Part shown: one piece after another, positions 18,941 through 24,800 of the stretch
Layout of the letters: each line of letters starts with the position of its first letter
How positions within the stretch are numbered: position 1 is the first letter of the stretch
Notes under the pieces: model-generated
The model's input: only the letters and a program-made list of their open reading frames with translations
Told to the model about the DNA's origin: nothing
Database searches by the model: none
IMG/VR virus record: IMGVR_UViG_3300022693_000586
Coordinates: 1 to 24,800 of that record
Strand: one strand, 5' to 3'
DNA length: 24,800 nucleotides
Origin: a virus
Translations under genes and position numbers: made by a program

Positions 18941-18971
18941 ATTTTTATTTATGGGTAGTCGGAGCATATCA

Positions 18972-19700
18972 ATGAATGCAATTGTAAAAATTAAGTATGA
19001 GGATCAAGATCAAACTTTTGATCATCAAGGTTGGTTTAATGCAACACAAGCTGCTAGTAAATTTAACAAACCAGTCCATGATTGGGTGCGCCTACCAGAA
19101 ACACAGAAGTATCTAGAAGCACTTGAGCGCAAATACGGGAAAATCCCTTATTTGAAGACTAAGCGTGGAAATAATGGCGGAACTTGGCTGCACCCAAAAC
19201 TGGCAGTTCGATTTGCTCAATGGCTAGATATTGATTTCTCAATTTGGTGTGATGAGCAAATTGATAACCTAATTCGAACTAGTCAGGCTCCGCCTTCAGT
19301 TCAAGATATGATGCGTTTGATGCTCTTACCAGAAGCATCGACTTGGGAGAAACGCTTCCCAGATTCTTTTTATAAGGCCTTGGCAAAAGTTACAGGCACA
19401 AAATTCAATAACCATATTGGTGGAACACCTGCAATTTTTGGCGACTTAACAAATAAGTGGGTTTATCGAATCATTATGCCAAAAGAGATTCTAGCAGAGA
19501 TCAGAGCTAGCAAGCGTGATGGTGAAAAGATGCACCAATGGCTCACAAATGGTGGAGAAAAGTTGCTTTCAGAGCAAATAACTAAAGTTGAGGCAATTGC
19601 TAATTCATCAAATGACTATCAAGACTTTGTAAGCCGTTGCTTTCAAGCATTTAACTCGGTGAAGGGGCAATTGCGTTTAGTAATGCCGCAAGGTGAATAA
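18972..19700 (+). CDS. KilA-N / P63C antirepressor-like DNA-binding protein
   Basis: A 242-residue protein. Residues about 20-100 carry the KilA-N layout (WFNATQAASKFNK, YLKTKRGNNGGTWLHPKLAVRFAQWL, FSIWCDEQI), a DNA-binding domain of phage regulators. Residues about 110-200 match P63C (LPEASTWEKRFPDSFYKALA; GDLTNKWVYRIIMPKEI). The ATG at 18972 follows CGGAGCAT; ATG at 18951 has no ribosome binding site. It interrupts a run of tail genes and is flanked by terminators, so it is an accessory gene (a moron). It probably acts as an antirepressor or regulator; target unknown. Confidence 0.85.
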   Translation: MNAIVKIKYEDQDQTFDHQGWFNATQAASKFNKPVHDWVRLPETQKYLEALERKYGKIPYLKTKRGNNGGTWLHPKLAVRFAQWLDIDFSIWCDEQIDNLIRTSQAPPSVQDMMRLMLLPEASTWEKRFPDSFYKALAKVTGTKFNNHIGGTPAIFGDLTNKWVYRIIMPKEILAEIRASKRDGEKMHQWLTNGGEKLLSEQITKVEAIANSSNDYQDFVSRCFQAFNSVKGQLRLVMPQGE

Positions 19701-22312: not shown

Positions 22313-22783
22313 ATGTCTCAACATCGTCGAACTAAACGTGGCATCGCAACAAAAAATGGCAATGATGTATCAGTTGCTGTGGAAGAGGCGGAAAGCTACT
22401 CACCATACCCGCCTCCTGATTTGGTTAAGGCATTTGAAGAAATCCAACCTGGTCTAGCTAGTCGTTTAATGCAGATTGTTGAGAATGAACAGACTATGAG
22501 TCATGAAGTGGCTCGCCATCAAATGGCAGAAAATAAGCGCATCAACACTGCAAACATTGAGAATCAAAAACATAACTCTCAATTATTCCTTCTTGGTTTA
22601 ATATTTGGAGTGTTGATAGGAATAGGGATTCTATGTGTAGCAGTATATGCGCTATATGCTGGTTATCCTTGGGTTGCAACGGCTGCTTTCTCAACCTTAG
22701 CAGCTATTTTAGTAATCCTAGTGCTTCGCAAAGTGCCTGCTTCTAATGGTGAGCAGACATCTAAGCCGTCTACTCAAAAATAG
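22313..22783 (+). CDS. DUF2335-family membrane protein
   Basis: A 156-residue protein. The segment SPYPPPDLVKAFEEIQPGLASRLM...NEQTMSHE is the DUF2335 signature (P-P-P-x-L...Y-x-x-I-x-P-G-x-A). Two transmembrane segments follow at about residues 90-115 and 118-140 (FLLGLIFGVLIGIGILCVAV; AAFSTLAAILVILVL), then a short hydrophilic tail. DUF2335 proteins are found in many prophages and genomic islands; the function is not known. No strong ribosome binding site is seen, so translation may be coupled to the previous gene. Ends before a strong terminator. Confidence 0.8.
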   Translation: MSQHRRTKRGIATKNGNDVSVAVEEAESYSPYPPPDLVKAFEEIQPGLASRLMQIVENEQTMSHEVARHQMAENKRINTANIENQKHNSQLFLLGLIFGVLIGIGILCVAVYALYAGYPWVATAAFSTLAAILVILVLRKVPASNGEQTSKPSTQK

Positions 22784-22852: not shown

Positions 22853-22891
22853 TACCCCTAAACAAGGGGTATTGTTATTACAACAATACCC
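22853..22891. repeat. three-element overlapping inverted repeat between convergent genes
   Basis: GGGTATTGTT (22867-22876) and AACAATACCC (22882-22891) form a perfect 10-bp stem with a 5-nt loop. Upstream TACCCC (22853-22858) is also complementary to GGGGTA (22866-22871), so the middle element can pair with either side. It sits just after the stop of the leftward antirepressor gene (22901) and could end that message, but it lacks a proper T-run on either strand. Confidence 0.5.
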
Positions 22892-22900
22892 GATAATGAA

Positions 22901-23773
22901 TTAATGAGCTAAATACCATTCAATGTCATGCGGTGATTTATTTCCTACATGCTCTAAAGTAAGGCCATAGCCAATTGCTTTTCGATTTAAAGCATTAGCA
23001 TGACAAACCGCTTCAGATGTCAAGCCACTCAAACGGCCTGCATAGCTACTTTGAATAGCTGTTAGAGCTGGATAGATTTCATTCTTAATGAACTTGCCAA
23101 GAATTGGGACGTACCACATCAAGAACTGAACATTCTTATCGCGTAATACTGTGTGAATATGAGGTTCCGTATCCTTGTATTTCTCCGTATTGCTGTACAT
23201 AGCAATTAAGTGGTGAACGTACTCAACAGCCACAGGTATTACATCATATGGAATTTCATCAATATGCTGAACATTGAAACGCTGGTGAACTAATTTATAA
23301 GCATCGCTGTAATTCAAATGCTTAGTTTTAGCTACTAAAAGATTTACTGCATTGGTTAAAGGTTCACGCTCTGATTTGTGAGTTTTGGCAACTGGTGCGC
23401 CAATTTCTTTATCAAGAACATCAAGAACCCATTTTCGAAACTGCTTTGCTACAGAAGTACGTGCAAAGAAGGTGATTAAATGGCAACCACGAAGCGAAAA
23501 AACACGAATAGTTTTTTCTAGATTTTCGGTTTTCTTCGAGAGCCTCAAATTGAGGTTCTCGACGGAACAGCTTGAATTAACAACACTCACTTTGAGGGTC
23601 GTTGTCATATCACTTGCGAACTCATCTTTATTTCGTTCATAGATTTGAGTAACCGCATTTGATTTTTCATAACCAAGTGCTTTAGCTAATTCACTAGCCG
23701 AAAGCCAGATCTGGTTATTATGTTGTACAGGTGAAAAGTTCACTTCATTAAAGGTTAGTGCTAAACTTGTCAT
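22901..23773 (-). CDS. Bro-N antirepressor protein
   Basis: A 290-residue protein. The N-terminal ~110 residues are a Bro-N domain (NNQIWLSASELAKALGYEKSNAVTQIYERNKDEF ... IRVFSLRGCHLITFFARTSVAKQFRKWVLDVLD), the DNA-binding module of phage antirepressors. The C-terminal ~150 residues (from about 140) are helical and not clearly assigned. The ATG (23773) is preceded by AAGGAA at 7 bases. The gene lies downstream of the Arc-like gene on the same strand, 69 bases away, as ant follows arc in P22. Antirepressors inactivate the prophage repressor of an infecting or resident phage. Confidence 0.87.
   Translation of the reverse strand: MTSLALTFNEVNFSPVQHNNQIWLSASELAKALGYEKSNAVTQIYERNKDEFASDMTTTLKVSVVNSSCSVENLNLRLSKKTENLEKTIRVFSLRGCHLITFFARTSVAKQFRKWVLDVLDKEIGAPVAKTHKSEREPLTNAVNLLVAKTKHLNYSDAYKLVHQRFNVQHIDEIPYDVIPVAVEYVHHLIAMYSNTEKYKDTEPHIHTVLRDKNVQFLMWYVPILGKFIKNEIYPALTAIQSSYAGRLSGLTSEAVCHANALNRKAIGYGLTLEHVGNKSPHDIEWYLAH
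23739..23767 (+). promoter_or_regulatory. weak candidate promoter of an antisense RNA
   Basis: TTCACT (23739-23744), 17 bp, TAAACT (23762-23767) on the plus strand inside the 5' part of the antirepressor gene. Start near 23774 would place the RNA directly over the antirepressor ribosome binding site. Boxes are only partly consensus. Confidence 0.3.
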
Positions 23774-23844
23774 GTTGATTTTCCTTAGTCGGGGAATGAT
23801 ACAAAACCCTGTTTGATGTGAGAGTCGGCAGGGTTTATTTTTTT
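23774..23844 (+). ncRNA. candidate sar-like antisense RNA
   Basis: Between the arc-like stop and the antirepressor start (minus-strand genes) the plus strand has a terminator: AAACCCTG (23804-23811), a 17-nt loop, CAGGGTTT (23829-23836) then A and seven T (23838-23844). With the candidate promoter at 23739-23767 this would give an RNA of about 70 nt that covers the antirepressor Shine-Dalgarno (plus strand 23781-23786). P22 sar RNA has the same position, function and length. The terminator is seen; the RNA is inferred. Confidence 0.4.
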
Positions 23845-23998
23845 AAGCTTGATGATTTGAACGCTTTAGTAACCATTCTTCAATAAGAAGGTTTACTTGA
23901 GCTGTTAGGCTTCGATGCTCTTTTTCAGTTTCAATTTTTAATTTATCTAGAGTATCTTCTGGAACGCGGATATTAATCTGAGGGTCTTTTCTAGCCAT
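23843..23998 (-). CDS. arc: Arc-like ribbon-helix-helix repressor
   Basis: A 51-residue protein, same length class as P22 Arc (53). The start ARKDPQINIRVPEDT supplies the ribbon strand, followed by two helices (LDKLKIETEKEHRSLTAQVN and LLIEEWLLKRS) as in Arc/Mnt proteins. It is read leftward from a start at 23998, with a consensus promoter in the intergenic region on its side, and is followed by the antirepressor gene. By analogy it represses its own promoter and so limits antirepressor synthesis. The gene is short and easily missed, but the fold pattern is strong. Confidence 0.85.
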   Translation of the reverse strand: MARKDPQINIRVPEDTLDKLKIETEKEHRSLTAQVNLLIEEWLLKRSNHQA

Positions 23999-24012
23999 TT
24001 TTAATCCCAATG

Positions 24013-24067
24013 TATAACGGTGATATATTTATATAACGGTGATGCTATTGTGTCAAGCACCGTAATA
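24013..24067. promoter_or_regulatory. divergent promoter with Arc/Mnt-type operators
   Basis: On the minus strand TTGACA (24056-24051), 17 bp, TATAAA (24033-24028) is a near-perfect promoter for the arc-like gene. TATAACGGTGAT occurs directly repeated at 24013-24024 and 24032-24043, 19 bp apart, overlapping the -10/spacer and the start. A third, inverted and imperfect copy (CACCGTAATA) is at 24058-24067. The RHH proteins on either side are the likely ligands. A plus-strand promoter for the gene at 24106 is less clear. Confidence 0.75.
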
Positions 24068-24105
24068 CTATTATTCTTATAAAAAGTTTTTTGAGCTTAA
24101 AAGTG

Positions 24106-24342
24106 ATGTCTAGAGCAGACCCGCAAATCAATATTCGAGTGCCTATAGAGTTGAAGAAAGAAATAGAGCATGCAGCTATTGAAAATAGTAGGTCGCTTAA
24201 TGCAGAAGTTGTTCATAGGCTGCAAGACAGTTTGAGTAGAGTGAAGGTTAATAAATCTGAACTCACTACTGAGGAACTTATGGAAGAGCTTTCTAAAAGG
24301 TTTGGTGGGTTGAATGTAAAAATTACTCCTAGTGAAGAATAA
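24106..24342 (+). CDS. mnt: Mnt-like ribbon-helix-helix repressor
   Basis: A 78-residue protein, like P22 Mnt (about 82). It begins MSRADPQINIRVPIELKKEIE, then helices with ENSRSLNAEVVHRLQDSLSR, the conserved RSxNxE motif of Arc/Mnt proteins, and a longer C-terminal part (ELTTEELMEELSKRF) that in Mnt provides tetramerisation. It shares DPQINIRVP with the leftward Arc-like protein, so the pair probably arose by duplication. I chose ATG 24106 over an upstream TTG. Divergent orientation and shared operators suggest it represses the arc/antirepressor promoter in the lysogen. Confidence 0.82.
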   Translation: MSRADPQINIRVPIELKKEIEHAAIENSRSLNAEVVHRLQDSLSRVKVNKSELTTEELMEELSKRFGGLNVKITPSEE

Positions 24343-24362: not shown

Positions 24363-24800
24363 ATGGCTAAACAAAGAAGGCTTCTTAAAACTCCGCCAGA
24401 AAAATTGCATGAACTTCTACAAATGCAAAAATTTATTGATGAAGAAATCATCATGGAGTTAAGTGCGGACCGGACAACAGCATCCTACAGAACAAGGGTG
24501 GTCATGGATGAACTGATGACAACTATCCCTGGGTTGGAGTTGAAACTAATATCCAACAGAAGCCCAAATGGATTCGTTTATCACAGTTTTTCTTTAATAT
24601 TTAATGTTATCAACCACTCAGATGTTTTTGCACAACTTGAGATTGAACCCAGCGACAAGTTGAGTCATCGCAATGAGGATGGTTCAGAAATTTATGGTGC
24701 TCATTGGTATATAATTGGAGAAACGACCAAAGTTAAGGACGATGAATCGTTTGATTGGTATAATTGGTTTAAAGAATTTAGAATTAAGACCAATTTAACT
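24363..24800 (+). CDS. unknown protein, partial, runs off the window
   Basis: An ORF open from ATG at 24363 to the end of the window (146 codons, no stop). It starts 20 bases after the Mnt-like stop and may be co-transcribed with it. The start is basic (MAKQRRLLKTPPEKLHELLQ), the rest is mixed with several aromatic residues (ESFDWYNWFKEFRIK). I do not recognise it. In P22 no such gene follows mnt, so it may be an added accessory or exclusion function. Confidence 0.6.
   Translation, partial: MAKQRRLLKTPPEKLHELLQMQKFIDEEIIMELSADRTTASYRTRVVMDELMTTIPGLELKLISNRSPNGFVYHSFSLIFNVINHSDVFAQLEIEPSDKLSHRNEDGSEIYGAHWYIIGETTKVKDDESFDWYNWFKEFRIKTNLT

Follow-up and report, generated by a model that had tools for sequence, protein, structure and literature searches.

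The window, a 24,800-nt (24.8-kb) viral fragment of an Acinetobacter phage, likely carries an antirepressor switch of the P22 immI type. As far as the sequence can tell, the switch is intact. Relative to the P22 system it would differ in three respects: a swapped N-terminal domain in the antirepressor, a probable shared operator and a predicted sar-type antisense RNA that is invisible to Rfam.

Gene order and genomic context

The cassette consists of three open reading frames, which are found at the places originally predicted: an ant-like gene (positions 22901–23773, minus strand), an arc-like gene (23843–23998, minus strand) and an mnt-like gene (24106–24342, plus strand). The immI-like order proposed for them is also borne out, i.e., mnt-like (+), divergent promoters with operator-like repeats, arc-like (-) and ant-like (-). 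The divergent mnt-like repressor gene adjoins the arc-like and ant operon, as in an immI-type region. One element was overlooked in the original prediction, a predicted sar-type antisense RNA between the arc-like and ant-like genes.

Upstream of the cassette are genes for a DnaB-like helicase, terminase, portal, major head protein, connectors, tail terminator, tail protein and tail assembly chaperone. Because of these head and tail genes, the proposed location among tail genes holds. It provides no contrast with P22, where immI also lies within the late operon (PMC2629481, PMC8022706). The 24.8-kb fragment has no gene for a prophage repressor of this phage.

Other genes close by are of note. 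An ORF that matches phrog_2017 (unknown function; 24363–24800) starts 20 bases past the mnt-like gene, with which it may be co-transcribed; in P22, orf59a follows mnt in the same manner. Upstream of the cassette and on the opposite strand is a DUF2335/phrog_3996 membrane protein gene of the moron category (22313–22783). The tail terminator gene and the tail gene after it are separated by an insert that encodes a KilA-N + P63C protein (18951–19700; E values 1.1e-20 and 8.3e-16); in Acinetobacter phage qsb1 a gene annotated as AntB occupies this slot.

Arc-like and Mnt-like repressors

Both small proteins match Pfam Arc (PF03869), in agreement with the Arc/Mnt-like pair first proposed. The scores are 31.1 bits (E 2.1e-7) for the arc-like and 42.8 bits (E 4.7e-11) for the mnt-like protein, above the curated cut-off of 20.4 bits. 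The arc-like RHH repressor is 51 aa from its ATG. A 32-aa alignment with P22 Arc gives 34% identity, and a 47-aa alignment with P22 Mnt gives 36%. The mnt-like RHH repressor is 78 aa, counted from the ATG at 24106, which was used in place of the mechanical ORF start (TTG at 24091). In a 45-aa alignment with P22 Mnt its identity is 40%, and it matches phrog_2685 with an E of 1.1e-23. P22 Mnt also matches the Pfam Repressor_Mnt tetramerisation domain (PF11423; E 1.6e-20), for which the window protein shows no match; it is therefore Mnt-like by place and N-terminal domain only.

The DPQINIRVP segment is common to both RHH proteins, as originally noted, and its fuller form is (M-x-R-x)DPQINIRVP. 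The two copies of this strand are encoded by differing synonymous codons. A toxin-antitoxin or partition role for the RHH genes was considered and dropped; the genes flank ant in the immI order, unlike either. The PHROG label "partition protein ATPase" is one that P22 Mnt itself is also assigned.

Predicted promoters and operator-like repeats

The predicted promoter Pant (24028–24056, minus strand) was read from the sequence between the arc-like and mnt-like genes. It has a -35 element TTGACA (24056–24051), a 17 bp spacer and a -10 element TATAAA (24033–24028), and its sequence is identical in all close relatives. A candidate Pmnt of weak consensus (TTGTGT ... TATTAT; 24048–24074, plus strand) was read in the same way. 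Neither promoter was above threshold in a consensus promoter scan; Pant, which ends in TATAAA, was not called because the scan requires a final T in the -10 element.

Three operator-like repeats are present. Repeat 1 (TATAACGGTGAT, 24013–24024) is at the predicted Pant start site and repeat 2, also TATAACGGTGAT (24032–24043), is in the Pant spacer at the edge of the -10 element. Repeat 3 (CACCGTAATAC, 24058–24068) is inverted, with 10 of 11 positions complementary to repeat 1, and lies upstream of the Pant -35 element, inside candidate Pmnt. An exact direct repeat as long as the 12-bp TATAACGGTGAT appeared in 5 of 5000 dinucleotide shuffles of the 107-bp arc-mnt spacer. The 12-bp repeats are invariant in all close relatives, and a diverged cassette (L024) has three sites of another sequence (ATCACAGTG..., ATCACTGTG... 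and ATCATGGTG...) in similar positions.

The places of repeats 1 and 2 relative to Pant are the same as those of P22 O_mnt and O_arc, respectively. However, O_arc and O_mnt differ in sequence according to the P22 annotation, whereas the two Pant repeats in the window are identical. Because of this identity, and because the same DNA-reading strand is present in both RHH proteins, the Arc-like and Mnt-like proteins probably share operator sites, unlike P22 Arc and Mnt. One operator sequence read by both RHH proteins is the most likely difference between this switch and that of P22.

The antirepressor and its exchanged N-terminal domain

The ant-like gene encodes a protein of 290 aa, with a Bro-N domain at residues 16–119 and a C-terminal half similar to P22 Ant at residues 127–247. 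The Pfam Bro-N match (PF02498) has an E of 3.7e-12 and 47.1 bits, above the curated cut-off of 25.6 bits. Residues 127–247, aligned over 121 aa, are 38% identical to P22 Ant, and tblastn against the phage collection gives an E of about 6e-16. PHROG matches are to phrog_2127 anti-repressor (E 9.7e-95) and phrog_245 Ant (E 9.6e-49). P22 Ant consists of the Pfam domains P22_AR_N and P22_AR_C; in the window protein Pfam finds no P22_AR_N, and P22_AR_C is under the cut-off (15 vs 22.4 bits). The original statement that this antirepressor differs from P22 Ant in domain type thus holds for the N-terminal half but not for the C-terminal half, which is homologous to that of P22 Ant. In the same way, the suggestion of the same circuit built with another effector is correct in that Bro-N has replaced P22_AR_N, but the effector as a whole is not a different one.

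A terminator-like hairpin found by consensus scan follows immediately after the ant stop codon (22867–22891, minus strand), with an 11-pair stem, GGGTATTGTT/AACAATACCC. P22 ant likewise has a terminator after it.

Similar domain exchanges occur in other phages. A Bro-N ant with P22_AR_C is present in Escherichia phages PhiR12_4 and EC.P3, and Acinetobacter qsb1 has an ORF6N ant, both in cassettes of the immI kind, and Salmonella Emek has mnt, arc and sar together with a KilA-N ant. Cassettes with Bro-N, KilA-N and ORF6N are therefore already in public phage records, and the Bro-N swap is a known kind of exchange.

A predicted sar-type antisense RNA

The predicted antisense RNA is about 72 nt (23774–23845, plus strand) and fills the gap between the arc-like and ant-like genes, from the base before the ant ATG (23774) to the arc stop codon (23845). 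It displays two hairpins (23774–23802 and 23804–23836) followed by TTTATTTTTTT. P22 sar, 70 nt in length, is bounded by the same two points. A candidate Psar (23739–23767, plus strand) consists of TTCACT, 17 bp and the extended -10 element TGC-TAAACT (23759–23767). The latter (TGCTAAACT) falls within ant codons 3–5 on the opposite strand, and P22 Psar has TGC-TATACT at the same offset. The fold z score of the element is -3.1, compared with -1.7 for the opposite strand.

Rfam sar (RF00262; gathering cut-off 43 bits) has no match in the window at either E <= 5 or E <= 10; Rfam matches in the region were rejected as chance only. The element is therefore sar-like in layout and not a member of RF00262 as modelled. 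A covariance model (R2) trained without the window's Acinetobacter clade places its best match in the 2-kb region at 23774–23839 (plus strand), which is weak at 13.3 bits and an E of 0.047. With default filters on the whole window this site is not reported, and another (23547–23606) is reported instead. As the Rfam and R2 scores are absent or weak, the case for the window copy is based on position, promoter, fold and close relatives and not on model score.

Conservation of the predicted antisense RNA structure

The two-hairpin layout is common to 27 lineages: all 18 Acinetobacter representatives, P22 and eight other enterobacterial or Pseudomonas phages; hairpin pairs were tabulated for 24 of the 27. 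The layout is kept in all inspected representatives, whether arc is present or absent, and the 5' hairpin that covers the ribosome site is kept across relatives. In Rfam searches RF00262 matches P22 sar, and none of the 18 Acinetobacter-lineage records is above the cut-off since their sequences are too far from the Rfam model.

Of the two strands, the antisense one is the more stable in 19 of 19 elements. There are 65 G-U pairs on the antisense strand vs 20 on the sense strand, a count that is informative because every G-U pair corresponds to an A-C mismatch on the opposite strand. The fold z score is below -2.5 in 17 of the 19; antisense 66-mers upstream of 140 other ORFs have a mean z of -0.90 (sd 1.63), with 16% below -2.5. 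When arms are exchanged between lineages only 63% and 56% pair, against own arms that are fully paired by construction.

Plain MAFFT alignments of the antisense RNAs yield no consensus fold, because the stems are shifted against each other by one or two bases. Iteration from a seed model of four sequences in register removed this shift. The resulting alignment of 11 sequences does not contain the window's clade, and since it was fitted to the tested structure it leans towards it; in it, 12 of 12 pairs hold in all rows (100% of cells paired). In six pairs both partners have changed (shuffle mean 2.4; 0 of 500 shuffles reach 6), and partners slid by 1–3 columns pair in 30–49% of cells.

Constraint on the start of ant

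The sequence TGNTANNNT occurs at the exact ant offset in 23 of 436 distinct ORFs of at least 100 aa, and 20 of these 23 are unambiguous ant starts. Codon 5 is NCA in 23 of 26 distinct ant leaders, which are related and so not independent draws; among NCN codons later in the same genes 34% are NCA. The start codons AGT-(T/A)TA-GCA, the complement of the extended -10 element, are kept behind four N-domain types. The protein start M-x-S-L/I-A is constant, and the domain that follows is Bro-N, ORF6N, KilA-N or P22_AR_N. We infer that the constraint on the ant start is the antisense promoter. If so, the N-terminal domain can be swapped while the first five Ant residues stay, because the codons for these residues are the promoter.

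For JLK-2012, Oslo and SPN3UB the layout is revealed when the ant start is moved to an internal ATG, a move that Rfam supports for SPN3UB. The annotated starts in these phages (L088, L097 and L099) are probably too early, and the sar-like element ends at the internal ATG at 1501, 1123 and 1471, respectively. In a separate observation, a weak R2 match (21.2 bits, E 0.079) at 2352–2411 of L089 directly precedes the second antirepressor gene in Erwinia phage Midgardsormr38.

Survey of homologous loci

An RHH profile was applied to the best 80 of 189 IMG/VR loci. The full order, with an arc-like gene directly before ant and a divergent RHH gene, is found at 20 of the 80; at 30 others the divergent RHH gene is present and arc is absent. 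At the remaining 30 there is no profile match close to ant. These last loci were considered as counter-examples, and in some of those inspected the divergent place is occupied by an ORF that resembles RHH genes by eye or by an HTH gene. The RHH-like ORF, seen at L014-type loci, has no Pfam match; the HTH gene encodes a repressor in L043 and is a weak HTH in L027. On a single contig (L023, 6066–7599) a second ANT/RHH/RHH set adjoins the first cassette, and one phage may carry two switches.

The sar layout is absent from the ant genes of Aaphi23, S1249, Pmp3, Mcat15 and APSE-2. Other Rfam RNAs are upstream of these genes: C4 in APSE-2 and sRNA-Xcc1 in the other four, phages of Haemophilus/Aggregatibacter, Pasteurella and Moraxella. 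sRNA-Xcc1 (RF02221) is above the cut-off and directly upstream of ant in each (L093, 1030–1114; L095, 1200–1283; L096, 1358–1443; L100, 1044–1129), and may be an ant-control RNA like C4. C4 antisense RNA and isrK are upstream of the APSE-2 Bro-N antirepressor gene (L098, 1264–1455). JLK-2012 has C4 and isrK (L088, 147–332) more than 1 kb upstream of its ant, which also has a sar-like element.

Proposed function and alternative explanations

In a lysogen, the Mnt-like protein would occupy the repeats and silence Pant. On entry into a new cell, where repressor would be lacking, Pant would fire and yield the Arc-like protein and Ant; the Arc-like protein would then act on the same sites to turn Pant off. 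Transcribed from Psar within the ant start, the antisense RNA may pair with the ant ribosome site and hold Ant synthesis low. Ant could bind a CI/C2-type repressor by way of Bro-N and/or its C-terminal half, and so lift the immunity of a resident prophage or shift the choice between lysis and lysogeny.

The point in this scheme most open to another explanation is the sharing of operators. P22 Arc and Mnt use different operators (annotation) and the residues that flank the DPQINIRVP strand differ between the two window proteins, so that the strand might be a family consensus only and the proteins might use separate operators as in P22. This is rather unlikely, as both Pant sites are the same 12-mer. 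In addition, the strand residues aligned with the Arc and Mnt DNA contacts are identical in both proteins. Clearly less probable is a role for the Bro-N protein as a DNA-binding transcription regulator itself and not an antirepressor. DNA binding has been claimed for Bro-N elsewhere, and in these cassettes Bro-N, KilA-N and ORF6N can replace one another at the N-terminus. Against this role are the 38% identity of the C-terminal half to P22 Ant over 121 aa, the retention of immI-type control, and the finding that every named high-score PHROG match is an anti-repressor family.

The arc-ant hairpin could also serve solely to terminate or attenuate the sense (arc-ant) transcript, with no antisense RNA made. 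The stem can form in the sense strand too, and in the window it is followed on the sense side by TTTTG, so that it could work in both directions. Yet the antisense strand is better in 19 of 19 elements with wobble pairs that fit only that strand, T-richness after the stem is greater on the antisense side (173 vs 118), and both the 5' hairpin over the ribosome site and the extended -10 element are kept. The homologous P22 element is moreover a characterised antisense RNA (annotation; PMC2629481). A hairpin acting in the sense transcript only is thus quite improbable. There is little reason to regard the cassette as a decaying remnant without current function, an "ant moron" in decay. Degraded immI regions have been described in some P22-like phages (PMC2629481), but here the three genes are intact, relatives retain the promoter and repeats, and the predicted antisense RNA still shows compensatory changes.

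Comparison suggests that the antisense RNA is the most constant control layer and that the N-terminal half of the antirepressor is exchanged freely. A more general proposal, about as likely as not, is that the sar-type RNA, and not Arc, is the constant control of P22Ant-type antirepressors across phages of Gammaproteobacteria. Its promoter would lie in the first five ant codons (M-x-S-L/I-A), so that at least four N-domains (P22_AR_N, Bro-N, KilA-N and ORF6N) could be exchanged behind it without breaking control, and the Acinetobacter Arc-like and Mnt-like proteins would have converged on one operator.

sar is a textbook antisense RNA of P22 and close relatives. A literature search, with most subscription journals outside its scope, found no report of a sar-type RNA beyond P22 and epsilon34. 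Transcription of the Acinetobacter elements would mean that sar-type control is far older and more widespread than the Rfam family. The promoter proposal, if true, would provide a simple reason for N-terminal swaps with the first five Ant residues fixed. Acinetobacter baumannii carries many prophages, and the cassette would represent a concrete switch by which an incoming phage could wake another. The epsilon34 genome paper remarked that arc-less ant regions, those of CUS-3 and HS-1, must have some other control mechanism (PMC2629481); the sar-type RNA kept at the arc-less loci surveyed here would, if the elements are transcribed, answer this remark.

Comparison with known systems

P22 immI has the order mnt(-), Pmnt/Pant, arc(+), sar(-), ant(+) and terminator, which the window matches from the other strand. 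Similarities include an RHH pair of similar length, Pant sites at the spacer and start, a predicted sar-type RNA that fills the arc-ant gap, the C-terminal half of Ant, the terminator after ant and the late-gene location. Unlike P22, the window has Bro-N in place of P22_AR_N, P22_AR_C below the cut-off, no Repressor_Mnt domain, identical operator-like repeats at Pant and a predicted antisense RNA that is not recognised by RF00262. The element resembles RF00262 in position, two-hairpin shape and a promoter inside the ant start, but its sequence is too distant.

The Arc-Arc-Ant cassettes of Salmonella phages Oslo and SPN3UB have the same order and a sar-like element, and that of Oslo is also just before the tape measure gene. 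They differ in having enterobacterial hosts, and Oslo Ant has P22_AR_N. In PhiR12_4 and EC.P3, where the cassette genes are mostly annotated as hypothetical, Arc-like (-) and Arc-like (+) genes, sar and a Bro-N ant with a P22Ant-type C-terminal half are present as in the window; these phages are enterobacterial, and in them Rfam sar is above the cut-off and P22_AR_C is fully recognised. In vB_AbaS_qsb1 (PV107591) the Ant N-terminal domain is ORF6N, unlike that of the window, and the antisense RNA is unannotated. The same cassette is nevertheless found there in the same place, between the tail chaperone and tape measure genes, with arc-like and mnt-like proteins and operators nearly identical to those of the window.
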